DNA of 38,009 bases from Phycisphaerae bacterium (lineage in GTDB: Bacteria > Planctomycetota > Phycisphaerae > Tepidisphaerales > Tepidisphaeraceae), in assembly GCA_025936175.1 (NCBI GenBank), contig JAICTV010000024.1, forward strand, positions 1 to 38,009, in the 5' to 3' direction. A program made the position numbers and the translations under genes. The notes under the pieces are model-generated. The model worked only from the letters and a program-made list of their open reading frames with translations. It was not told where the DNA came from and ran no database searches. Shown one piece after another: positions 1,684-27,011 of the stretch. Positions within the stretch are counted from its first letter, which is position 1; the number at the start of each line of letters is the position of its first letter.

Positions 1684-2082
1684 ATGGCGACGGCAACACT
1701 GACCATCCGTGACGAGACGGCCTCCGGCAAGAACGTGGGCGAGACGGTGCTCGAGTTTCTGACCGAACGGACCACCGTCCGCGAGCTGGTCCGCTCGCGG
1801 GTCTACCAGGAAGTGCAGGACTACAACCTCAAACGCCCGGAGATCTTCCGCGGCCTGGTGCAGCCGACGGACGCCGAGCAGGCGCTCAACGGCTTCAAGC
1901 TGCGCAAGGCGCGCGAGATCGACTGGAAGAAGCAGTTCGAGAAGGCGTGCGACGCGTTCGAGCGCAACGGGTTCTTCGTCCTGATCGACGACAAGCAGGC
2001 GGAAAGCCTCGATCAGGAGTTTACGATTCATTCGCCGACGACCGTGACGTTCGTGAAGCTCGTTCCGCTCGTCGGGGGATAA
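1684..2082 (+). CDS. Small protein, probable beta-grasp (ubiquitin/MoaD-like) fold, C-terminal Gly-Gly
   Basis: 132 residues from the ATG at 1684; a GTG at 1675 is an alternative start. The N-terminus reads as strand (ATLTIRDE), strand (TVLEFLTER) and helix (VRELVRSRVYQEVQDYN), the beta-beta-alpha opening of a beta-grasp fold. A ~45-residue insert follows with a second helix (DWKKQFEKACDAFERNG). The protein closes with strands FFVLIDDKQ and TTVTFVKLVPLVGG, stopping exactly at Gly-Gly, as ThiS, MoaD and mature ubiquitin do. It is first in an operon with a DUF4132 gene. I infer a ubiquitin-like or sulfur-carrier-like protein; no E1, E2 or JAB-type gene is visible in the window, so activation would need a partner elsewhere. 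The coding call is firm; the fold is inferred by eye. Confidence 0.8.
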   Translation: MATATLTIRDETASGKNVGETVLEFLTERTTVRELVRSRVYQEVQDYNLKRPEIFRGLVQPTDAEQALNGFKLRKAREIDWKKQFEKACDAFERNGFFVLIDDKQAESLDQEFTIHSPTTVTFVKLVPLVGG

Positions 2083-2156
2083 TTTTCCTTCCGCGAGAAC
2101 ATTCCGAGATCACCTTGAGCCGCGTCCCTCGCGACGCGCGTCTGGAGGCCTTCAGC

Positions 2157-2258
2157 ATGCTGACGAGCGCCCGCCCCGTGCCTGAAGACTTCAATCCCGC
2201 CGCACGACTCACACCGTTGATCATGAAGCAGATCAAGACCACCGCGAGTCAGATGTGA
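2157..2258 (+). CDS. Possible 33-residue ORF coupling to DUF4132 gene
   Basis: An ATG at 2157 has a perfect GGAGG at 2144-2148, eight bases upstream, one of the best ribosome sites in the window. The ORF encodes a short peptide (MLTSARPVPEDFNPAARLTP and 13 more residues) and ends in TGA inside ATGTGA, where the GTG at 2255 opens the DUF4132 frame. The overlap would let ribosomes terminate and restart, as in leader or coupling ORFs. No family is recognised. An alternative is that only the Shine-Dalgarno is used, or that the peptide is the remains of an N-terminal extension of the next gene. Confidence 0.35.
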   Translation: MLTSARPVPEDFNPAARLTPLIMKQIKTTASQM

Positions 2259-4900
2259 AACTTCCGGCGCAGCGAGATTCGACCTTCACCGAAACCGCCG
2301 CCGAGGCGGCGCGAAATGGCTGGCCCGACGTCGTCGCCGTACCCGATTTCTCGGACGAGTTCGCGGAGATCGACGCCTACGTCGCCGGCTGCAAGACGGC
2401 GCACCAGTCGAATCACTTCGACACCGAGGCGAAGTTCAAGCAGCTCACCGTCGTCTCGCGCGGCCCTGAGAAACTAAAGAGGCTCGCGCTCGCCGCGATG
2501 CAGGGCGTGATCTGGGCCTTCTGCACCGACGAGCGCCGCGTCTTCAATCTTTACTACCCCGGCCGGATGGTCGCGATCACGCTGCTGGCGCGCAAATTCC
2601 CGCCGGACGAGACGTACGTGCGGACCCTGCTCAAGCTTCTCGACGAAGTTCCACCGGGCAAGAGCGGTTATGTCGTCGAGCTGGCCGCTTCGATCGTGAA
2701 GACTACCGAGCATTTCGCGGACGCCGGCGGCGCGATCGATGACGAGATGAAGAAGTTCCTGCGTCGCACCGCGGTCGTCATCGAAACGTGTCCGCACAAG
2801 GACAAGAAGATGCGGCAGGCGGTCGATGTCGCGCGCTCGCTTTGCGGCGAAGCCGCGGCGTGGCCGATGAGCGCGGGCGAGGCGTGGTCGGATGTCGCGC
2901 TGGCGGACCTGAACAAACTCGACGCCGCGGCACAATCACAATGGCGCGAGCTGCTCGATCATGCCATCGAGTGCAACGACACGCGGCCGGGGAACAAGTG
3001 GCTCGACGCCGCCCGACGCTTCATCCGGGACGGCGAGGCTCCCGCCGAGCCGCGAGTGCGGAACAAATCTCGGCTCGGCAGGAGCCTCGCCCTCCCACCT
3101 CCAATCGATCGCAACGTGCTTGCCGAGCATCTCGAGCGCTGGCTCACTGAGATCGGTCAGCCGGGAACGGTCGCGCAACCGGTCGAATTCCGCGGTATGT
3201 CGAACAATACCATCCCGCCGGGTTCGAGCCAGGACCTGCTCGGCGGCTTGTGCTGGTTCGCCGCTCTGACCGGCCATCCGCAAGCATTAAGGTCTCTCGC
3301 CGACGCGGCGGAGGCGAGCTTCCGCGTCATCCCCAAGCTCGGCCCGCGCTGCGTTCGTCTCGGCAACGCCGCGGTTCGCGCGCTGGCCTCGGTCGGCACG
3401 ATGGACGCGATCGCGCAGCTCGCGCGCCTTGAGCTCCGCGTCCGCACGCCCAAGGGACGCAAGATCGTCCGCAAGTTCATGGACGAGGCGATCGAAAAGT
3501 CGGGCCTGACCCGACAGGACGTGGAAGAAACGACGGTGCCGGATTTCGGCCTGCGCGACGGCCGGGCCACCATCGCCGTCGCCGACTGGACCGCCGAGAT
3601 CGCGATCGACGGCTTCGAGCCGACGCTCGTCTGGAAGAAGCCCGACGGCTCCGCCGCCAAGACCGTCGCCGCGATCAAGAAAATTCATCCCGGCCAGGTC
3701 GAATCGATCCAGCGCACGCTCAAGGACATCGAATCGATGCTCCCCGCACAGCGCAGGCGCCTCGAGCTGCTCCTTCGCGACACGCGCACCTGGCGGATCG
3801 ACGACTGGCGAAGGCGCTACCTCGACCACGGCCTGCTCGCGCCAATGGTCCGCCGGCTCATCTGGCTCATCGACGGCACGCCCGCGCTCTTCGTCGATGC
3901 CTCGCCGCAGGACGTTCAAGGCAACCCGATCGAAATCGGACAAACCGCCGAGATCGCGATCTGGCATCCCGTCGGGCGAAGCGTTGACGAAGTCGTCGCG
4001 TGGCGGCGGCGTCTGGAAGGTCTGCGCATCACGCAGCCCTTCAAGCAGGCGCATCGCGAGGTCTATCTGATCACCGACGCGGAATTGGCGACGTCAACTT
4101 ACTCCAACCGCTTCGCCGCCCACATCGTCAAGACGCAGGTCTTCATCGCCATCGGCCAGACGCGCAAGTGGACCGTCACGCTCTACGGCCAGGCGTCGCT
4201 CGAGCTGCCGCAGTTCGATCTCCGCGCCGAGTACTGGGCCAACCAGGCGGGCGATGAGTTCAGCCACATGGGCGGGCCGCGCTATCTCTCGACCGACCAG
4301 CTCCGCTTCTACGCGACGAGTGAAACCGCCGCCCGCGCCTACAAGCATCGCGGGCTGACCACCGAGCCGCTGGAGCTGGCGCATGTCCCGATCCTCGCCT
4401 TCTCCGAAGTGATGCGCGACTGCGATCTCTTCGTCGGCATCTCCAGCGTCGGCGCCGATCCCACTTGGCGCGACGCCGGCAGCGCCGACCCGCGCTACCA
4501 GCGCTACTGGCACGACTTCAGCTTCGGCGATCTGACCGAGAGCGCAAAAACCCGCAAGGCGGTGCTTGATCGCCTCGTGCCGAGATTGAAAATCGCGCCG
4601 CGCTGCTCGGTGACGGAAAAATTCCTCGTCGTCCGCGGCGATCTGCGCAAGTACAAGATCCACCTCGGCAGCGGCAACATCCTGATGGAGCCGAACGATC
4701 AGTACCTCTGCATCGTCCCCGCGCGCGGCGGCCTCGCGCCGAGCGGCGCGGCGACCGGCGAGACGGTCTTCCTGCCGTTCGAGGGCGATCAGATGCTCTC
4801 GGTCATCCTCAGCAAGGCGTTTTTGCTCGCCGACGATAAGATGATCTCCGACCCGACCATCACACGTCAGATAGGCAATGAACAAGGGGTAAGGGCATGA
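2255..4900 (+). CDS. DUF4132 (MolR/YehI-like) protein with DUF7737-type C-terminus
   Basis: 881 residues from a GTG at 2255. The N-terminal ~550 residues are helical and HEAT-like. The DUF4132 signature QPFKQAHREVYLITDAE is near residue 594, followed by YSNRFAAHIVKTQ. The C-terminus carries FSEVMRDCDLFVGISSVG and a strongly conserved end near residues 800-822 (KIHLGSGNILMEPNDQYLC), which I recognise from DUF4132/DUF7737 proteins. E. coli MolR/YehI belongs here; the molecular function is unknown. No signal peptide or membrane segment is seen, so it is probably cytoplasmic. Residues ~260-279 are encoded by an in-frame palindromic repeat (separate entry). It overlaps the next gene by ATGA (4897-4900) and follows the Gly-Gly protein, so the three are probably co-translated. 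Confidence 0.85.
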   Translation: MKLPAQRDSTFTETAAEAARNGWPDVVAVPDFSDEFAEIDAYVAGCKTAHQSNHFDTEAKFKQLTVVSRGPEKLKRLALAAMQGVIWAFCTDERRVFNLYYPGRMVAITLLARKFPPDETYVRTLLKLLDEVPPGKSGYVVELAASIVKTTEHFADAGGAIDDEMKKFLRRTAVVIETCPHKDKKMRQAVDVARSLCGEAAAWPMSAGEAWSDVALADLNKLDAAAQSQWRELLDHAIECNDTRPGNKWLDAARRFIRDGEAPAEPRVRNKSRLGRSLALPPPIDRNVLAEHLERWLTEIGQPGTVAQPVEFRGMSNNTIPPGSSQDLLGGLCWFAALTGHPQALRSLADAAEASFRVIPKLGPRCVRLGNAAVRALASVGTMDAIAQLARLELRVRTPKGRKIVRKFMDEAIEKSGLTRQDVEETTVPDFGLRDGRATIAVADWTAEIAIDGFEPTLVWKKPDGSAAKTVAAIKKIHPGQVESIQRTLKDIESMLPAQRRRLELLLRDTRTWRIDDWRRRYLDHGLLAPMVRRLIWLIDGTPALFVDASPQDVQGNPIEIGQTAEIAIWHPVGRSVDEVVAWRRRLEGLRITQPFKQAHREVYLITDAELATSTYSNRFAAHIVKTQVFIAIGQTRKWTVTLYGQASLELPQFDLRAEYWANQAGDEFSHMGGPRYLSTDQLRFYATSETAARAYKHRGLTTEPLELAHVPILAFSEVMRDCDLFVGISSVGADPTWRDAGSADPRYQRYWHDFSFGDLTESAKTRKAVLDRLVPRLKIAPRCSVTEKFLVVRGDLRKYKIHLGSGNILMEPNDQYLCIVPARGGLAPSGAATGETVFLPFEGDQMLSVILSKAFLLADDKMISDPTITRQIGNEQGVRA
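3032..3091. repeat. Palindromic repeat inside the DUF4132 coding sequence (family D)
   Basis: Left arm 3032-3055 and right arm 3068-3091 are inverted copies matching at 22 of 24 positions, separated by 12 bases. The element is open in the gene's frame and encodes EAPAEPR...RLGRSLALP, a low-complexity sequence I associate with intergenic repeats in planctomycete genomes. It lies in a linker-like part of the protein, so it looks like a repeat that inserted without breaking the frame. Confidence 0.8.
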
Positions 4901-6426
4901 ACCTGATTTCGATCGTCATCGCATTGGCGGCGATCACGCCGCCGAACACCGGTCAATGGAAAACCGCGCCCACGCCACAGGTGCAGGCGGCCGCACAAAA
5001 CGGCGACGCCAAGGCCGCGCTGGAACTTGGGCTCCGCTACGACCAGGGCCGCGCCGGTGTCAGCAAAGATCCAGACGAGGCGATCAAGTGGCTGCGCAAG
5101 GCCGCCGACGCCGGCGACGTCGATGCCCAGAGCGCGGCCGCCGTCCACCTCGCCTACGGCAACGGTCCGGAATCCGACAAGGTCGATGCCTTCAATTATC
5201 TCAAGCAAGCGGTCGCCAAAGGGGACGTGCAGGCGACGTACGAGCTGGGGCTGGCGTACAAGCTGGGCCGCGGCACCGTCGCCAACGACGCCGAGGCGCT
5301 GCCGCTTCTGACAAAAGCCGCCGGCGCCGGAATCCCCGCCGCACAATTCGAGCTGGCCGACAGTCAGGAGACCGGCAAGGGCACGCCCGCCAATCCGGCC
5401 GACGCGCTGAAGAATTTCCTCGCCGCCGCGAATCAGAATTATCTGCCGGCGATGCATCGTCTCGGCCAGATGTATCTCAAGGGCGCGCCCGGCGTCCCCG
5501 CCGATCCGCGCGAGGGACAGAAGTGGCTGCTCAAAGCCGCGACGGCCGGCTACGTCCCGGCGGAGTGGGACATCGCCAAGCAATTCGAAGCGACCGGACC
5601 GTCCGGCAAAGAGAAAGCCGCCACGTGGTACAAGAAACTCGCCGAGCAAAAGGACCTCAACGCGCAGGTCGCGCTCGGCAACGCCTCGCCCGAAACGGTC
5701 AAGAAGATGGCCCGCCCGCTGCAAATGACGTCGCGCGGGCCGGACGAGACGCTGGTCGGCGGGATCGTCGCGGTCGAAGGAACGCTGCACAATCCGGTCC
5801 AGGCTGCCGCCGCCGCGGCGACGGCGGAGAGAACGCCATCGCAGACGAGCGCCCGCCGACCCACGCGCGCCCAAACCCCGACCCCTCCGCCAACGCCCGC
5901 GCGCCGCGGAATTCCTGACACGCCCGCTACTCGCGCCGCCGAGAACAAGTGGACCATCGAAATGACCTCCCACGGCAGCGCGTTCTCGCTGCCTGTGGAC
6001 GTCTCTCACATGCAGCTCTTTAAGGGCCAGGACCAGATGCACGTCACGCTTTACGCCGCGCTCGATGCGACCGACCGCAAGACGCTGCACGCGCTGGCGA
6101 TGGACACGACGGCGCCCAGGTTCGAGTGGCGATACAACCTCAAATCCCCCACCGGCGGCGGCGTGGCCGCGGGGCACAACAAGACCTGGATCGTCGAAGG
6201 CGCGGTGAAGAACACCGGCAAACAGTTGATCAAGAACATGAAGGTGCAGGTGCGCGTCTATCAGCAGAGCAGCCCCAACGACGCCAAGACCACGCTCGAC
6301 ATCAAACAGATCCCGGCGGGCGCGGTGCAGCCCTTCAGCGTCAACGTCGAGATGTACAACTTCGAGTACATCGGCGCCACCAGCACGCCGAAGGTGGAGA
6401 TCACGGTGCTGGACTACTCATACTGA
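4897..6426 (+). CDS. Sel1-like repeat protein with C-terminal FxLYD-like beta domain
   Basis: 509 residues; the ATG at 4897 overlaps the DUF4132 stop and has an AAGGGG-type site upstream. A weak hydrophobic start (MNLISIVIALAAI) may be a signal peptide, suggesting periplasmic location, but this is not certain. Residues ~35-265 hold about six Sel1-like repeats (for example AALELGLRYDQGRAGVSKDP, with the alternating WLRKAADAGD pattern), a scaffold for protein-protein contacts. A Pro/Thr/Ala-rich linker follows (~300-345). The last ~160 residues contain WIVEGAVKNTGKQLIKNMKV and end FEYIGATSTPKVEITVLDYSY, resembling the extracytoplasmic FxLYD/DUF3426-type beta sandwich. Partner role for the two genes before it is inferred only from the operon. 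Confidence 0.8.
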   Translation: MNLISIVIALAAITPPNTGQWKTAPTPQVQAAAQNGDAKAALELGLRYDQGRAGVSKDPDEAIKWLRKAADAGDVDAQSAAAVHLAYGNGPESDKVDAFNYLKQAVAKGDVQATYELGLAYKLGRGTVANDAEALPLLTKAAGAGIPAAQFELADSQETGKGTPANPADALKNFLAAANQNYLPAMHRLGQMYLKGAPGVPADPREGQKWLLKAATAGYVPAEWDIAKQFEATGPSGKEKAATWYKKLAEQKDLNAQVALGNASPETVKKMARPLQMTSRGPDETLVGGIVAVEGTLHNPVQAAAAAATAERTPSQTSARRPTRAQTPTPPPTPARRGIPDTPATRAAENKWTIEMTSHGSAFSLPVDVSHMQLFKGQDQMHVTLYAALDATDRKTLHALAMDTTAPRFEWRYNLKSPTGGGVAAGHNKTWIVEGAVKNTGKQLIKNMKVQVRVYQQSSPNDAKTTLDIKQIPAGAVQPFSVNVEMYNFEYIGATSTPKVEITVLDYSY

Positions 6427-19140: not shown

Positions 19141-21375
19141 ATGGCGAGCATGGCAAGACGCGGTCGCGGCGACGAAGCGGGCGGCGGAACGAAGCAGGCG
19201 GCGAAGGATCAGAAGCCGTCGCAGGCGCCGCCGTCATCGCCGCAGAAGAAGTCGGATGGCGCGCAGCCATCATCGAACGGACCGGTCGCGAAGCAGCAAC
19301 CGCCGCCCGCGCCGGTGATCGCGAAGGTTGTCGCGCGCAAGCCTCCTCCTCCGCCGCCGGCGCCGTCGACCGCGCCATCAACGCAGCCTCCGATGACTGC
19401 TCCTGTTGCGAAGACGCCCTTCGGGTCCGAGCCTCAGGGTCGAGGACAAGCGGCGCCGGCTCAGTTCAAGGTCCCTGCGACTCCGCCTCCGGCACCGCCC
19501 GTGCACGCAGCACCGCCCGCGCCCGCGCCGGCGACATCACCGTCATCCCCTCCCCTCCCCCCACTCCTCTTCGAGATCGGCTGGGAAGTCTGCTGGCAGC
19601 TCGGCGGGATCTACACCGTGCTCAAGACCAAGGCCGATTGCATGATCGATCGCTGGGACGATCGATACTGCATGATCGGCCCGTACAACCCCGCGACCGC
19701 CGCGCTGGAATTCGAAGAGCGCCCGACGGAAGGAATCATCCGCGAGACGCTCGATCGCCTGCGCGCACAGGGCATCCCCTGTCACTTCGGCCGCTGGCTC
19801 ATCCCCGGCCGGCCGCGCGTCATCCTGCTCGACTACCGCGCGCGCTACCAGCACCTCGACCACGACAAGTACCTGATGTGGAAGGACCACGGCATCTCCG
19901 TCCCCAACAACGACGGCGAGGTGAACGAGGTGGTCGCCTTCGGCTTCACCGTCGCCGAGTTCTTCCGCGAGCTGGCCAACGTCGCGCAGGGACGAACCGT
20001 GCTGGCGCACTTCCACGAGTGGATGGCCGGCGTCGCGGTCCCGCGCATCGCGCACAACCAGCTCCCGATCACCACGATCTTCACCACGCACGCGACGCTG
20101 CTCGGGCGATACCTGGCGAGCAACAGCCCGAGCTTTTACGACAGCCTGCCCTTCATCAAGCCGGACGAGGAAGCCGCGCGCTACCAGATCTGGCCGCGCT
20201 TCGCGATCGAGCGCGCGGCGGCGCACGCGTCGGTCGTCTTCACGACCGTCAGCGAAGTCACCGCGTTCGAGGCGGAGAAACTCCTCGGCCGCCGGCCGGA
20301 CGTCATTCTTCCCAACGGCCTGAACATCCAGAAATTCGCCGCTTTGCACGAGTTCCAGAACCTGCACCGCCAGTACAAGGAGCGCATCCACGATTTCGTG
20401 ATGGGGCATTTCTTCCCCAGCTACACGTTCGATCTCAACAACACACTCTACTTCTTCACCAGCGGGCGCTACGAGTACACGAATAAGGGGATCGACCTGT
20501 TCATCGAGTCGATGTACCGGCTGAACCAGCGGATGAAGACGCTGCCCGCGATGCTGCCGCGGCCGACGGTCGTCGCGTTCATCATCACCCGCGCGCCGAC
20601 GCGCAGCATCAACGTCGCCACGCTGCAGAACCAGTCGATGCTCAACGACCTGCGGCAGACGTGCATCGAGCTGCAGACGGAGATGGGCCGCCGCCTCTTC
20701 AATTCCGCCGCCACCGGCCGCATCCCCGGCTATCCGGAATTACTACCGGAAGATTCACAGGTGCGCCTCAAGCGCGCGATCCACGCGTGGCGGAGTCATT
20801 ACCAGCCGACCATCGTCACGCACGATCTCGTCGATGATGCCGGCGATCCGGTGCTCAAGCATCTGCGTCACCGCGGCCTGTTCAATGCCGAGGACGATCC
20901 GGTGAAGGTCGTTTTCCATCCCGACTTCGTGACCGCGGTAAGCCCGCTGATCGGGATGGACTACCCGCAGTTCGTCCGCGGGTGTCACCTGGGGATCTTC
21001 CCGAGCTACTACGAGCCGTGGGGTTACACGCCGATGGAGTCGATCGCGATGGGCGTGCCCGCCGTGACGACCGACACGAGCGGCTTCGGCGCGTACGTGC
21101 AGCGCCACATCCCCGATGCGGCGGAGAACGGCTGTCTCGTTCTCAACCGTCGCACGTCCGGCTTCGATCGCGCGGCGGACGATCTGACCACGTACCTCTT
21201 CGACTTCGTCCGCCTCAACCGCCGCCAGCGCATTGAGCTGCGCAACAAAACCGAGCGGTTGGGGGAACAGTTCGACTGGTCAACGCTGGTCAAGCAGTAT
21301 CACGCCGCCCACGATCTGGCGATGGAACGCGTCGGCGCGCCCAAGCCGGGGAAGCTGGAATTGAGAATGGTGTGA
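19141..21375 (+). CDS. Glycogen synthase, GT3 (animal/fungal GYS) type, with Pro/Ala-rich N-terminal extension
   Basis: 744 residues from the ATG at 19141, preceded by AAGGGAGGG. The first ~140 residues are low-complexity (Pro, Ala, Lys, Gln) and probably disordered. The GT3 domain begins EIGWEVCWQLGGIYTVLKTK and contains HFHEWMAGVAVPR (near 289), TTHATLLGRYL, TVSEVTAFEAEKLLG, LPNGLNI and IFPSYYEPWGYTPMESIAMG (near 620), which closely follow the eukaryotic GYS pattern, not bacterial GlgA (GT5). It would elongate alpha-1,4-glucan from UDP-glucose. The regulatory C-terminal tail of animal GYS is absent. No branching enzyme or phosphorylase gene is nearby. Confidence 0.92.
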   Translation: MASMARRGRGDEAGGGTKQAAKDQKPSQAPPSSPQKKSDGAQPSSNGPVAKQQPPPAPVIAKVVARKPPPPPPAPSTAPSTQPPMTAPVAKTPFGSEPQGRGQAAPAQFKVPATPPPAPPVHAAPPAPAPATSPSSPPLPPLLFEIGWEVCWQLGGIYTVLKTKADCMIDRWDDRYCMIGPYNPATAALEFEERPTEGIIRETLDRLRAQGIPCHFGRWLIPGRPRVILLDYRARYQHLDHDKYLMWKDHGISVPNNDGEVNEVVAFGFTVAEFFRELANVAQGRTVLAHFHEWMAGVAVPRIAHNQLPITTIFTTHATLLGRYLASNSPSFYDSLPFIKPDEEAARYQIWPRFAIERAAAHASVVFTTVSEVTAFEAEKLLGRRPDVILPNGLNIQKFAALHEFQNLHRQYKERIHDFVMGHFFPSYTFDLNNTLYFFTSGRYEYTNKGIDLFIESMYRLNQRMKTLPAMLPRPTVVAFIITRAPTRSINVATLQNQSMLNDLRQTCIELQTEMGRRLFNSAATGRIPGYPELLPEDSQVRLKRAIHAWRSHYQPTIVTHDLVDDAGDPVLKHLRHRGLFNAEDDPVKVVFHPDFVTAVSPLIGMDYPQFVRGCHLGIFPSYYEPWGYTPMESIAMGVPAVTTDTSGFGAYVQRHIPDAAENGCLVLNRRTSGFDRAADDLTTYLFDFVRLNRRQRIELRNKTERLGEQFDWSTLVKQYHAAHDLAMERVGAPKPGKLELRMV

Positions 21376-21379
21376 ACGG

Positions 21380-21456
21380 CTTCCGTAGCATGTCCGTTTC
21401 CGCCATGCCGGCTCGACAGGGAAAACAGCATGGGCGTGGACGCCCATGCTGCGAAG
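21380..21456. repeat. Palindromic repeat, family B
   Basis: Left arm 21380-21408 (CTTCCGTAGCATGTCC...) and right arm 21428-21456 (inverse of CTTCGCAGCATGGGCG). It starts four bases after the glycogen synthase stop and could end that transcript. Confidence 0.8.
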
Positions 21457-21676
21457 GGGAAAAGGGGGAATTCAGTGCGATCTCTCCGCCAGCCGCCGGC
21501 ACACTTGCGGCGCACCCTCCGCCGCGCCTTCGATCCGACGGCCGAGCCGACCAGACCGTTGAACGGCGCGCTCTGGCTGCACGGCACGAGGTCAGCGCGC
21601 TGCGCCATCAGGTTCACGGTCGGGCGGGTGATCTCCTTGAGGTTCACCGTGTGTTTGCCGGGCGCTGCCGGCGCAA
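21457..21676 (-). other. Coding-like stretch, possibly a remnant or a short gene (not firm)
   Basis: Between the repeat and the terminator, the minus strand reads KEITRPTVNLMAQRADLVPC and SAPFNGLVGSAVGSKARR with GC-rich third positions, so it looks protein-like. The open frame continues across the repeat into the 3' end of the glycogen synthase gene (to 21300), which is unlikely for an intact gene, and its apparent start lies inside the terminator stem. I do not recognise a family. It may be a decayed gene or a chance frame. Confidence 0.25.
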
Positions 21677-21677
21677 T

Positions 21678-21718
21678 AAAAAAAGGATCCGGCACCTGAA
21701 CCAGCGTGCCGGATCCTT
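21678..21718 (-). terminator. Intrinsic terminator of the helicase gene
   Basis: A perfect 13-bp inverted repeat, AAGGATCCGGCAC (21683-21695) and GTGCCGGATCCTT (21706-21718), has a 10-base loop. On the minus strand the stem is followed by a run of Ts (complement of the A7 at 21678-21684). It lies 29 bases after the stop of the minus-strand helicase gene. Confidence 0.85.
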
Positions 21719-21746
21719 CAACGTCTCTAATTCTTCTATCGGCCGA

Positions 21747-24700
21747 TCAGGCGGCGTTCTTGTCCTGCTCCTTGAGCTTTCTTCGCCGCGAGATGATCTC
21801 GCGGACGCTCGACCCGGTCGCCGTCGCTGCGGCGTTGCCGGCGGCGTTCAGTTCCGCGGCGCGCTCCGCCGCCTCCTTCTCCGTTTCCAGCGCCTGCTCG
21901 ATGTCCTTGAGGATACCGGCCATGCAGCCGTTGGGATCGCGGAAGAAGTGCGGCGTCCAGACGCGATGCACCTTCCATCCCTGCTGCTGCAGCATGTGCG
22001 TGCGGAAGACTTCCCATTCGACCGGGTCGTCCGTCACGTAGCGCGTCGTGTCGCAAAGCACGCCGATCGAGACGTCCTCGGCACGCTCGGGATGATGAAC
22101 CGCGAGATCGACGCAGAACCCTTCGTTGCCCCAGTGCACATCCGAACCGACGTTGTGCAGCGTCACCAGCCGACCGGCGAGCGATTTGGCGAACTGCGAC
22201 GGCGCCTTCGCCGGGCGCGGGTTGACCGCCTGCCGCTCGTCCGCCTTGGCGTTCTTGAGGATCCGCCAGGCGGTTTCGTAATCTTCCGCCAGCCGCTCGG
22301 CGTAATTCAGGTACGCGAAGAGCAGCCAGGTTCCGCTGGGCGTCTGACCCTGCGGGATCGGGTGCATCGTCGCGTACTCGCTGCGCGGGATGCTGGTGAC
22401 GATGTGGATTTGCTCGCGGGCGCGCGTGACGAGCACGTTCAAGCGCCGCCCGCCGCCCGGCTTGCCGACGGGGCCGAAGTTGCGACGGAAGCGGCCCTGC
22501 TTATCCGGGCCGTACGTCGTGCTGATGATCAGGTGATCGCGCTCGTCGCCCTGGACGTTCTCCAGGTTCTTGACGAAGAGGCCCTCGGTCGAGTTCTCGC
22601 CGCGGCGGCAGCGCGCCTCGGCGAGCTTGGCGGCGAACTCCGCGTCGCTCTCCGCCGCCTCTTCCAGCTTCTCCACGATCAGCTCGCGCTGCGGGAGATT
22701 GAAGCAGGCGATGCCGATGCTCGGCGGCTGCGGGCGCTTGAGCAGTTCCTTGACGATCTTGATGACCGCGTCCGCCTCGGTCTCGTTCTTGCGTTTTTCA
22801 TAAAGGCCTTCGGCGCGATAGAGCGTGAGCGGCGCGTGGCGCGATCGCTTGTGCGGATGCTCCGGAATCGCCTGCAGGCGCGAGCCGTAGAACTGCTCGT
22901 TGCTGAAGCCGATCAGGTCCGCGTGGCGCGAGCGGTAGTGCACGTCGAGGTAGCACTGATGGATGTCGAGGCCGAGCGCGGCGCCGAGCACGTCCTCGAT
23001 CTCCCCCTGGTGCGCCTCGAACAGCTCCTGATCGCTCTCGGTCTCCTCGTCGTCCGCGCTGGCGGCGATGGAGGATTCGAAGAAGCGCGTCGGCGGAAGC
23101 TGCTTCGGATCGCCGGCGATGACGACGCGCGTCGCGCGGGTCAGGACCGGCAGCGCCTCTTCCAGCCGGCACTGCGAGGCTTCGTCGAAGACGATCAGGT
23201 CGAAGATCGCCTGCCGCGGGAAGAGCTGGGCGACGGTTTCGGGCGACGCCATCCAGACCGGACGGAGCTCGAAGAGCGGATCGCCGCCCTCGACGCCGGC
23301 ACCGTGCTGGATGACCTGGCGAAGGCGCATCGCGCGGTCGCCCCGCCCGGTGAGCCGGCGGCGGAGGTCCGCGCCGATCGCGTTGAGCCGCGTGCCGGCG
23401 TTGATGAGCAGGCGCTCCTTCTGCCGGGCCGTCCACTTGCTGAGGATGACGTCGCGGACGAGGTGTTTCTTCCGCGCGCTCAGCTCGAGGTAGCGGTCGA
23501 ACGTGTTCTTGAGACGATGACCGTCGACGGCTTGAAGATTGGGCTCGGCGCGGAGTCGGCGGACGATTTCGCCCGCGAGGACGGCGCGTCGGCAGGCGGA
23601 ATAACCCGCATCCGCGCTGACGCCCGCATCGAGCAACGTCGCCGCGGCTTCGGCGAGCGGACCCGGCAAAAGCGCCAGGCCGTCGCGAACGCGCAGCACG
23701 CCTTCGAGCGAGTCCAGCTTCGTCGCCAGCGCGTGGATCGTCGGCAGCGCCTCGGCTCCGCCGCGCACTTCGGCGGCGAAATTATTCAGCCACTTGAGAT
23801 CGAACAGGAACGTCCCGGACAGCGTTTCTTCCAGCTTCACCAGCGCCAGGGCGCGCCGCGGCGCATCCTGCATCGCGCGGATGATCCCCTCGGCCGCCGC
23901 GGGTTCGCGGAGCGCACGCAGGACCGAATCCGTCACCGACACCTTCGCCGCCTCGGCGCGCACGCCGATCAGCAGGTCGAGCAGCGTTCCGTGCGTGTCG
24001 ATCGTCGAGATCAGCGCGTCATCGTTCGGCGGGAGCGGCGCGTTGGGCTCGGCGAGCGTCTGCTTGAAGACTTCGATCAGCCGCGCCCGAGCTTCGAGCC
24101 GACGCAATGCGGTCTCGAGGCGCTTGGCGTCCTTCGGCGAGGTCTCGAGGCCGAAGTTGCTCAGCACCTTCGTCGCCGGCCCGGCGGCGGTGGCGATCAG
24201 GCCGTTGATCGTCGTCACATGTTCATCCGGCACGGAGATCTCTCCGCCCGCTTGCGTCTTCGCGCCAGGATTCTTGCACAGGGTCTGGACGACCGCGTGG
24301 TGACGGCGGAAATCCGTGATGAGCGTGTCGTCATCGACGCGCCGGCCGTACGCCTCGCCGGTGATGTTCTCGATCACCGTCTGCAGATCGAGCCGCGCCT
24401 GCAGATTGAGGAGGAAATCCTTGATCTCGGCGGCGGACTGCGCGCCGAGCGGCTTGTTGAACTGCTTGCACACCGTCTCGGCGGCGCCCTTCTTGCCGAA
24501 GGCAAGCCCGCCGAACATCTTGCCGGCGACTTCGATGTACGCATCGAGCGCGCCGATCCACTCGTTGATCTGCGCGGCATCGATCTTCACGCGCTCGATC
24601 TTCATCGCCATGCCGGCGTCGAGGTGGCTCTGCTCGATCGCGGCGGCGATGGACTGGGCGGCGTCGAGGCGCTTGAGGGCGCTCGTCGCGGCTTTGCTCC

Positions 24701-26807
24701 CGGCTTCGAGCCAGTGCAGGATCGTCTCATCGTCCGCATCGGCGCCGGCGGCGCGCTGGACGCGCGCGAAGTCCGCGGCGATCGTGTTGAACGCCTTCAC
24801 GTAGCGGCTGGTGATCTCGCGATCGCGCGCGATCTGATCGGCGGTCGCGGTCGTCGGCGCTTCCAGCACGTTGTCCGGCGGCTCAAACCGCAGCACGTCG
24901 GCCCAATCCTTCACCTGCGTGATGCGATCGCGCGCCGCCTGAACGAGGTTCTCGGCGCGGCTGGCCCAGCGGATGCGGTCGGCCGTCGGGACCTTGGCGA
25001 TCACGTCGCGGATTTGCTGCGCGAGCTTGACGCGCTCGTCCGCCTCGGCCGCCGGGAACGCGCCGGCAGAGTACGCGGGCGCGAGCGGATCGCGCGCGGC
25101 GTCGGCGTCGGTCGCGTACTTCACGCACGCGGCCAGCGCCTGGCGGAATTGCTCCATCGGCGTGGCGAGGAAGTCCGCCAGCGGCACGCCGGCGGCGTCC
25201 TTCCACGGGTTGGTCGCGAAGCCGCACTGCATCCCGCGCTCGAGCACTTCCTTGAAGCGCGTGCCCTGCGTGCGCAGATCGGCGGCGGAAGACTCTGCCA
25301 GCGTCCGCTCGTCGATGTTGACGCCTTCCAGCGGAACTTCCTGCAGCCACAGGCCGACCAGGTGATGGAACGATCCGGGGCCGCCATTGCTCTGCACCAG
25401 CAGCTTGTGATACTCCGTCAGGTCCGCGTGAAGCGTCTGCAGATCGGCGTCGATCTTGGCCAGTTCCTCGGCGACGCGCTGCTTGGGCTGCGCGTCAACG
25501 AGACCGTCGAGCTGCTCGCGGATCGACTTGTACAGATCGCGCTGGTCCTTCTGCGGGTCGTGGATGATCGCGCACAGGTCGCCCAGCCCGAGCACGGCCA
25601 GGCGATCGGCGACGACGTCGAGCGCGGTGCGCTTGTCGCAGACGAACAACACGCGCTGCCCGCGGCCGAGATGATCGCTGACGATGTTGGTGATCGTCTG
25701 CGACTTGCCGGTGCCGGGAGGGCCGTGAATGACCAGGCCGCGATACTCGCGGGCGAGGCGGACGGCTTTCGCCTGGCACGGGTCGGCGTCGGTCACCATT
25801 TTCTCTTCGCCGAACGCGCGCTTGATCGATTCGTCCGCGGGCTTGGCCTTGGTGCTGTCGTGATCGGGGATGATCGGCGCGGCGGCGCTGGGACGATTGT
25901 CGAGGTTCACGCCCAGACGAACGAACGACGAGAGCGGCCCGTCGCCTGCGCCGGCGGCGACCATCTCGCGCATGTCGCGCAGCAAGCCCTGGTTCGACGC
26001 GGGATAGAGGCCCAGCACCGCGGCGGAGAGGATGCACGGGCCGGCTTCGTCGTCGGTCTTCGGGGTCGCTTCCAGCGGGAAGGTCGTCGGGAATTTCTCC
26101 GTGTTCAGCTCATCCGGGATCGCCAGCTCGACCAGCTCCGCCAGCGCGCGGACGAGCTGCACGATGTCGCGCCACGGGTCTTCGCCGCGCTCGGCGCCGG
26201 CCAGGTCCGCCAGCGCCTTGCCGGTTTCCTTTTCCAGCCACGCGAGCAGCGCCTGGTTCGGCACGATCGCATCGGCGCCTTCGCGGCGGCAGATTTCGAC
26301 CGCCTGCTGCGCGCCGGTCTTCACCATCATGGTCAGCGGGATGAAGGTGATCGGCGCGAGCACGCGCCGCGAGGGCGGCATGCCGAAGCGCCCGCCGAAC
26401 GTGCCTGGCGGGAGGCTCAGCAACGGAAAACCGAGGTTCAGCGCGCACACGCCGGTGTCCTGTTCATAGGTGCGGGCGTCGTCGGCGATCACGCGCAGCT
26501 TGGTGCGGACATACTGCTGATCCGCCCACGCCTCGGCGGCGGCGACCTGCTCGGGCGATTCCGGCTCGCCGTTGGTGTTCTTGCGGGTCACGATCGGCAC
26601 GCGGGCCGCGAGCTTGACCGAACCTTCCTTGCCCAGCAGCGCCATGAGCACGTCGCCCGGCGGGATGTCCTTGAGCTTGGCGAGGTGCAGCAGATCGAGC
26701 CGCTGCCGCGATGCGTGCGGCCGGCAGTTCATCGACGGCCCGTTCAACATCGCCGCGAACAGGCGATCGAGCATCTTCGAGAGGATCGGGTTGTTCGGTT
26801 CGATCAT
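21747..26807 (-). CDS. Large superfamily 1 (UPF1/DNA2-like) helicase with C-terminal restriction-endonuclease-like domain
   Basis: 1686 residues; AGGAG lies 11 bases before the ATG at 26807. Motif I is GPPGTGKSQTITNI near residue 361. Motif II is DLIVFDEASQC near 1205, then AGDPKQLPPTRFF, HYRSRHADLIGFSNEQFY, NVQGDERDHLIISTTYG and LNVLVTRARE near 1456. Motifs I and II are ~840 residues apart; the insert is mainly helical and coiled-coil-like. The N-terminal 340 residues are unassigned. Near 1555-1640, VDLAVHHPE...IGVLCD...GWKVHRVWTPHFFRDP resembles the Vsr/MTES_1575-type nuclease end of DUF4011-type helicases, but the usual ECDG...YH residues are not conserved. Such helicase-nuclease proteins include defence proteins (Hhe-like), yet this one stands alone and may be a core gene. 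Substrate unknown. Confidence 0.85.
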   Translation of the reverse strand: MIEPNNPILSKMLDRLFAAMLNGPSMNCRPHASRQRLDLLHLAKLKDIPPGDVLMALLGKEGSVKLAARVPIVTRKNTNGEPESPEQVAAAEAWADQQYVRTKLRVIADDARTYEQDTGVCALNLGFPLLSLPPGTFGGRFGMPPSRRVLAPITFIPLTMMVKTGAQQAVEICRREGADAIVPNQALLAWLEKETGKALADLAGAERGEDPWRDIVQLVRALAELVELAIPDELNTEKFPTTFPLEATPKTDDEAGPCILSAAVLGLYPASNQGLLRDMREMVAAGAGDGPLSSFVRLGVNLDNRPSAAAPIIPDHDSTKAKPADESIKRAFGEEKMVTDADPCQAKAVRLAREYRGLVIHGPPGTGKSQTITNIVSDHLGRGQRVLFVCDKRTALDVVADRLAVLGLGDLCAIIHDPQKDQRDLYKSIREQLDGLVDAQPKQRVAEELAKIDADLQTLHADLTEYHKLLVQSNGGPGSFHHLVGLWLQEVPLEGVNIDERTLAESSAADLRTQGTRFKEVLERGMQCGFATNPWKDAAGVPLADFLATPMEQFRQALAACVKYATDADAARDPLAPAYSAGAFPAAEADERVKLAQQIRDVIAKVPTADRIRWASRAENLVQAARDRITQVKDWADVLRFEPPDNVLEAPTTATADQIARDREITSRYVKAFNTIAADFARVQRAAGADADDETILHWLEAGSKAATSALKRLDAAQSIAAAIEQSHLDAGMAMKIERVKIDAAQINEWIGALDAYIEVAGKMFGGLAFGKKGAAETVCKQFNKPLGAQSAAEIKDFLLNLQARLDLQTVIENITGEAYGRRVDDDTLITDFRRHHAVVQTLCKNPGAKTQAGGEISVPDEHVTTINGLIATAAGPATKVLSNFGLETSPKDAKRLETALRRLEARARLIEVFKQTLAEPNAPLPPNDDALISTIDTHGTLLDLLIGVRAEAAKVSVTDSVLRALREPAAAEGIIRAMQDAPRRALALVKLEETLSGTFLFDLKWLNNFAAEVRGGAEALPTIHALATKLDSLEGVLRVRDGLALLPGPLAEAAATLLDAGVSADAGYSACRRAVLAGEIVRRLRAEPNLQAVDGHRLKNTFDRYLELSARKKHLVRDVILSKWTARQKERLLINAGTRLNAIGADLRRRLTGRGDRAMRLRQVIQHGAGVEGGDPLFELRPVWMASPETVAQLFPRQAIFDLIVFDEASQCRLEEALPVLTRATRVVIAGDPKQLPPTRFFESSIAASADDEETESDQELFEAHQGEIEDVLGAALGLDIHQCYLDVHYRSRHADLIGFSNEQFYGSRLQAIPEHPHKRSRHAPLTLYRAEGLYEKRKNETEADAVIKIVKELLKRPQPPSIGIACFNLPQRELIVEKLEEAAESDAEFAAKLAEARCRRGENSTEGLFVKNLENVQGDERDHLIISTTYGPDKQGRFRRNFGPVGKPGGGRRLNVLVTRAREQIHIVTSIPRSEYATMHPIPQGQTPSGTWLLFAYLNYAERLAEDYETAWRILKNAKADERQAVNPRPAKAPSQFAKSLAGRLVTLHNVGSDVHWGNEGFCVDLAVHHPERAEDVSIGVLCDTTRYVTDDPVEWEVFRTHMLQQQGWKVHRVWTPHFFRDPNGCMAGILKDIEQALETEKEAAERAAELNAAGNAAATATGSSVREIISRRRKLKEQDKNAA

Positions 26808-27011
26808 GGCCGCTCACACTCCTGGGCTGCTGCTGTCTCTTCAATGCCAACGGCGACGTGCGGATCGCCGCCTTACGGTTATCGTCCCTTGTATATCGGG
26901 CCTTAACTTGAGGGAGATGGAGAGATTTTGACGCCGGCGAGGGCGTCGAATCGCGTGATGCTGATCGTCGCGAAGTTATCGGTCGCACGCTCGCGACGCG
27001 CCGCGTCGCGG

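Follow-up and report, generated by a model that had tools for sequence, protein, structure and literature searches.

Small beta-grasp proteins ending in Gly-Gly (GG) act as carriers for larger enzymes, MoaD for MoaE and ThiS for ThiG, and the GG-ended beta-grasp proteins SAMP1/2 and TtuB are able to share an activating enzyme (E1) with sulfur pathways. Closer still is the DRA0165-DRA0166 operon of Deinococcus radiodurans. Here we analyse a gene pair in a 38,009-nucleotide stretch of DNA from a Phycisphaerae bacterium (contig JAICTV010000024.1, assembly GCA_025936175.1; the whole stretch is called the window). The first gene encodes a ubiquitin-like (predicted beta-grasp) protein of 132 amino acids (aa) with a GG end, the second an 881-aa protein with the domains DUF4132 and DUF7737. 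The two genes are conserved together across phyla, and the GG end is exact. By analogy with MoaD-MoaE and ThiS-ThiG, we propose that the small protein may be the carrier subunit of the DUF4132-DUF7737 protein, a reading to which we give a probability of about 0.48.

As in MoaD-MoaE and ThiS-ThiG, a small GG-ended protein with a (here predicted) beta-grasp fold is encoded beside a larger protein, and an E1 of the MoeB/ThiF type is available elsewhere in the genome. In contrast to MoaD and ThiS, the small protein of the window carries an insert of ∼30 residues between two helices and shows no match to them at the sequence level. Its partner is a DUF4132-DUF7737 protein rather than MoaE or ThiG, and the window's genome, 5.5 Mb in 384 contigs, encodes a separate MoaD-MoaE. 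With SAMP1/2 and TtuB the protein has the GG-ended beta-grasp type in common, but it has no known conjugate. The Deinococcus operon pairs a homologous GG-ended small protein with a DUF4132-DUF7737 protein, but belongs to a divergent clade and has a much longer partner (DUF5724-DUF4132-DUF7737). The MoaD-like nature of this one member is already published, as the available text of the report states (PMC9650054). No paper linking DUF4132 to a ubiquitin-like protein was among the matches listed from the open-licence literature.

A scan of GTDB genomes yielded 449 relatives of the small protein, of which the best 80 loci were kept. According to their record titles, these span Planctomycetota, Verrucomicrobiota, cyanobacteria, Bacteroidota, actinobacteria, Armatimonadota, Acidobacteriota and others, and they include the isolates Adhaeretor mobilis, Adonisia turfae, Micromonospora avicenniae and Hymenobacter sp. 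A DUF4132-protein profile finds a match in 75 of the 80 loci. The DUF4132 gene lies directly after the small-protein gene in 69 and directly before it in 5, and in one matching locus a DUF4132 fragment stands alone ∼2 kb upstream. With start codons chosen by script, the 69 pairs comprise 21 overlaps, 33 gaps of 0-20 nt and 15 gaps of 21-120 nt. Two of the five loci lacking a match are bounded by contig ends (L063 and L038, the latter judged from the gene order of close relatives), and the other three have DUF4132 elsewhere in the genome. The adjacency, which the initial annotation had seen at this one locus, is present in many phyla and not confined to a single lineage. Natural fusions of the two genes were absent from the 80 loci, and every small-protein match ends its own open reading frame (ORF). 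Copy numbers vary: a Verrucomicrobiia metagenome-assembled genome (L032) has three ubiquitin-like gene copies, one of them partial, ahead of one DUF4132 gene, and L091 has one copy with three tandem DUF4132 genes. At L019 (1207-1665; genome G058, not listed as DUF4132-bearing), a distant relative with the end MIQVAGG follows an NTP_transf_5 nucleotidyltransferase gene. This nucleotidyltransferase is possibly a third partner for the small-protein fold.

Seen from the DUF4132 side, pairing with the small protein follows the DUF7737 domain. Among 288 genomes of the window's phylum, 32 carry DUF4132, and all 46 matches listed besides the window's own were retrieved; four of the retrieved loci gave no match to the DUF4132 profile. 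Nineteen of the 46 align to a DUF7737-region profile. A small partner adjoins 17 of them, including one locus (L161) where the surviving part is a tail, ...RLTFLAGG, at the contig start. The two unpaired exceptions are L167, whose genome is 67% complete and shows no small partner, and L158. The latter is a second DUF4132-DUF7737 paralog in the window's genome (contig C3, 6184-8787), which overlaps a YchF-type GTPase gene and has no ubiquitin-like gene of its own; it could share the genome's single small-protein copy. Unlike the paired proteins, the 27 matches that do not align to the DUF7737 profile have no ubiquitin-like partner in the retrieved stretches (0/27), some of which are cut by contig ends. 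Eight of them were rescanned with Pfam and contain DUF4132 without DUF7737; two of these unpaired proteins carry WGR, as do the WGR-DUF4132 proteins of the MolR/YehI type, which share DUF4132 with the window's partner protein. A tree built from 51 DUF4132 regions groups the paired proteins in two main clades; the labels change 4 times, compared with 17.3 in shuffles. L161 entered this tree as unpaired though it is paired, and support for the deepest forks is weak (81/57, 88/45).

The terminal GG is nearly invariant, which exceeds what chance would give. A search over 5.8 billion proteins returned 4463 homologs, and 118 of the best 120 end in GG. The 80 loci hold 82 copies, of which 81 end in GG without further residues, while the last runs off its contig. 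PLVGG formed part of one of the two search patterns; 23 copies lie outside that pattern, and all of these except the truncated copy (22) have the GG end. Across the 81 copies, each of the two glycines is encoded by all four codons (27/20/19/15 at the first glycine, 27/21/19/14 at the second), which means that the constraint acts on the protein and not on the DNA. Among 6260 ORFs of at least 80 aa in the same loci, 142 end in GG, the small proteins themselves included. The residue at position 8 from the C-terminal end is K or R in 81/81 copies. Trypsin would therefore leave LVPLVGG, not GG, from the window's protein, and mass spectrometry for Gly-Gly remnants would miss it. In the Deinococcus clade 98 of 99 homologs end in GG, the remaining one being a partial entry. 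A few distant relatives have LAGA, LSG or LSGRLW tails instead. On a Bacteroides finegoldii plasmid (L103, 2392-2811), the small protein ends in LSGRLW although its DUF4132-DUF7737 partner follows; this variant may be incapable of activation, or may undergo trimming.

The initial annotation had described a 132-residue product that ends in PLVGG and is laid out as beta-beta-alpha, an insert and further strands, and both the ORF and its predicted secondary structure bear this out. The product ends in VTFVKLVPLVGG, followed by the stop codon. Strands at residues 4-12 and 17-25 and a short strand at 29-31 are predicted to precede a helix (32-50). The insert, which contains two short strands, leads to a helix (81-93) and then to strands at 97-101, 112-114 and 120-125, with residues 128-132 as a low-confidence tail. 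The structural comparison with MoaD, ThiS and ubiquitin that had been suggested points the same way: the protein is predicted to adopt a beta-grasp fold, and its best VIA matches are MoaD and ubiquitin-like proteins. Of the conditions that the initial annotation had named as refuting its reading, the three open to computation (a predicted structure lacking the beta-grasp, homologs without the GG end, adjacency limited to this lineage) all turned out not to hold. Two features of the ThiS/MoaD family (PF02597), the beta-grasp fold (in the predicted structure) and a C-terminal Gly-Gly with nothing after it, are thus found in the small protein. The PF02597 profile itself gave no match to it over the family cut-off, nor did any other family of Pfam, NCBIfam or PADLOC. 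We rejected membership of ThiS/MoaD or Urm1 by sequence, as the Pfam matches are weak, with ThiS in 3/80 members (E no higher than 1, the best being 0.13) and Urm1 in 1/80. Profile-profile comparison with the MoaD/ThiS families gave 2.5% and 0.7%, or 5.2% together. Searches of the PDB returned nothing for the single small-protein sequence of the window and one chance match (E 1.4) for its profile.

DUF4132, which had been assigned to the following gene from the outset, was recovered there by Pfam with 143.2 bits (E 1.1e-41), together with DUF7737 at 135.5 bits (E 7.8e-40), against cut-offs of 27. AlphaFold2 predicts a solenoid plus a C-terminal part (Table 1), and VIA matches, to HEAT/ARM proteins, fall within the solenoid only. 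The C-terminal part contains many invariant charged residues. Its DUF7737 domain has a motif, HLGSxN, which may resemble ADP-ribosyltransferases. Position 854 of the same domain is occupied by K in 101 of 104 unique proteins, by R in two (L104, on an Acetobacter plasmid, and L167) and by E in one, the paired protein L026. For the two R854 proteins, and for no others, the search of the locus and, where possible, of the genome turned up no partner.

Table 1. Features of the gene pair in the window
Feature	Position	Strand	Basis
Ubiquitin-like (predicted beta-grasp) protein, 132 aa, GG end	1684..2082	+	ORF, structure prediction, homologs
LVPLVGG tail codons (residues 126-132)	2059..2079	+	Low-confidence tail 128-132; conservation
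DUF4132-DUF7737 protein, 881 aa, partner gene	2255..4900	+	Pfam; adjacency
Helical (HEAT/ARM-like) solenoid, predicted, residues 1-426	2255..3532	+	AlphaFold2; VIA matches to HEAT/ARM proteins
DUF4132 domain, residues 472-639	3668..4171	+	Pfam PF13569
DUF7737 domain, residues 764-873; presence tracks ubiquitin-like partner	4544..4873	+	Pfam PF24879
Lys854 codon, candidate (inferred) GG-tail contact or acceptor	4814..4816	+	Conservation in DUF7737

In the D. radiodurans plasmid record, a 134-aa ORF with the end LTALAGG comes after trxC and immediately precedes the gene of a DUF5724-DUF4132-DUF7737 protein. Three other Deinococcus records have a small gene directly before the DUF4132 gene, and the one that is translated has the same ending. 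The two small-protein clades are homologous by profile-profile comparison (99.1%, E 2e-18; reversed controls 0.1%), so that the window's protein and the DRA0165 (SEP068184) family are, judged by sequence, of common descent. By its thioredoxin neighbour, a regulatory motif and the R1 protein P0204, we identify the D. radiodurans pair as DRA0165-DRA0166. In the published excerpts on this operon, a DdrO motif is placed 83 nt upstream, and the rise of DRA0166 under mitomycin C seen in the wild type is absent from an irrE mutant (PMC8533742). We located the DdrO palindrome ∼80 nt ahead of the 134-aa start. According to the available text of a second report, SEP068184 (DRA0165) is raised by gamma rays and peroxide, binds Trx1, and on deletion gives higher peroxide survival; among the MoaD-type proteins that its I-TASSER model resembles are MOCS2 and SAMP1 (PMC9650054). 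The same text describes it as a peptide not conserved beyond Deinococcus and as lacking the motif, and mentions neither the GG end nor DUF4132 (PMC9650054). The R1 annotation of DRA0165 (P0204) is 83 aa long, 51 residues shorter than the genus-conserved 134-aa form (L101, 634-1038). Its start is likely wrong, and the missing 51 residues probably explain the published statements on conservation and motif. Two Deinococcus-type members bear the UniRef name 'MoaD/ThiS family protein'. We dropped the sulfur neighbourhood of D. radiodurans (trxC, YeeE), which is not listed at the three other Deinococcus loci.

Around the pair, no cluster of E1, E2 or JAB genes recurs in the 80 loci, as judged from BLAST clusters whose members were not individually named, and we rejected an operonic ubiquitin-like type on this ground. 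The clusters found in more than 8 loci are the two genes themselves (clusters 0 and 1) and clusters 2-5, of which 404 of 420 members lie inside the pair's ORFs; the others are 15 cluster 2 members, spread over 14 loci, and a single cluster 4 member. Among the clusters that lie wholly outside the pair, the largest is present in 8/80 loci and has a representative resembling an ABC-type ATPase. A ThiF-type protein is encoded in 16/16 genomes searched, of 17 matched (one genome with a single match), and a shared E1 elsewhere in the genome is a possible activator.

If the small protein is a carrier subunit, a MoeB/ThiF-type E1 encoded elsewhere would adenylate its terminal glycine, which might then be converted to a thiocarboxylate. 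The flexible LVPLVGG tail would enter the DUF4132-DUF7737 protein near Lys854 and hand over sulfur or an acyl group. The gene arrangement fits this reading best: a single large protein has a GG-ended protein beside it, genes for an E1, E2 or protease do not recur, and ThiF is encoded in all genomes searched. Since the Deinococcus operon has been reported in the radiation/desiccation response, its product is likely used there under DNA damage or oxidative stress. Lys854 calls for caution. It is not unique, since 4 of 47 conserved positions are changed in both R854 proteins, which are divergent lineages, the Acetobacter one known from plasmid records alone. The tight gene coupling to a single partner, the distant pairs without GG (LSGRLW in Bacteroides, LSG) and the lack of a measurable link to the MoaD/ThiS families would suit a fixed or regulatory subunit that binds non-covalently, its tail a docking peptide that is never activated. 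A docking peptide need not stop exactly at GG, as nearly all copies in both clades do, and we regard this explanation as improbable.

Alternatively, the small protein could be a true modifier like SAMP or TtuB, whose terminal glycine would be joined to lysines of other proteins, and the DUF4132-DUF7737 protein would be the ligase, a receptor or the chief target. An exact GG end under strong protein-level constraint would suit this, as would the distribution of Lys854, replaced by R in the two proteins with no partner detected. In the available text, pull-downs with D. radiodurans DRA0165 recovered 157 common proteins (PMC9650054), and the JAMM peptidase DR0402 is reported to cleave MoaD-MoaE (PMC8832034). 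The 157 proteins, however, were recovered with both N-tagged and C-tagged baits. As conjugation would be blocked by a tag at the C-terminus, they are no argument for it. The absence of a recurring E2, ligase or JAB gene and the changes that accompany R854 count against a modifier too, which we consider unlikely, though somewhat less so than the docking peptide. A bolder version, as doubtful as the latter, is an ancient two-gene ubiquitin-like system of many phyla, in which the terminal glycine would be joined to the partner's Lys854 (or passed on to other proteins), switching the solenoid protein under stress with a borrowed housekeeping E1.

DNA-damage control outside Deinococcus was rejected, as LexA-like boxes upstream of the gene are few there (1 against 0.56 expected, 1 against 0.11, and 0 for three other patterns). 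A viral or phage origin was likewise rejected: the small protein has no relatives in viral contigs and the partner none in phage records. In the window, a Sel1-repeat gene (4897-6426) shares 4 nt, stop codon included, with the DUF4132 gene; no recurrence of it was seen in the clustering of the 80 loci. Further downstream, an 1844-aa ORF (21372-26906, +) lies opposite a 1686-aa open frame (21747-26807, -).

Taken together, the family view joins two separate Deinococcus reports, one on a DNA-damage-induced operon and one on a MoaD-like stress peptide, into one family; it points to a likely wrong start of DRA0165 and names residues and mass shifts to seek. If the carrier reading is true, it would add a broad carrier or modifier family, and would give the widespread, unexplained DUF4132-DUF7737 proteins a defined partner and testable chemistry.
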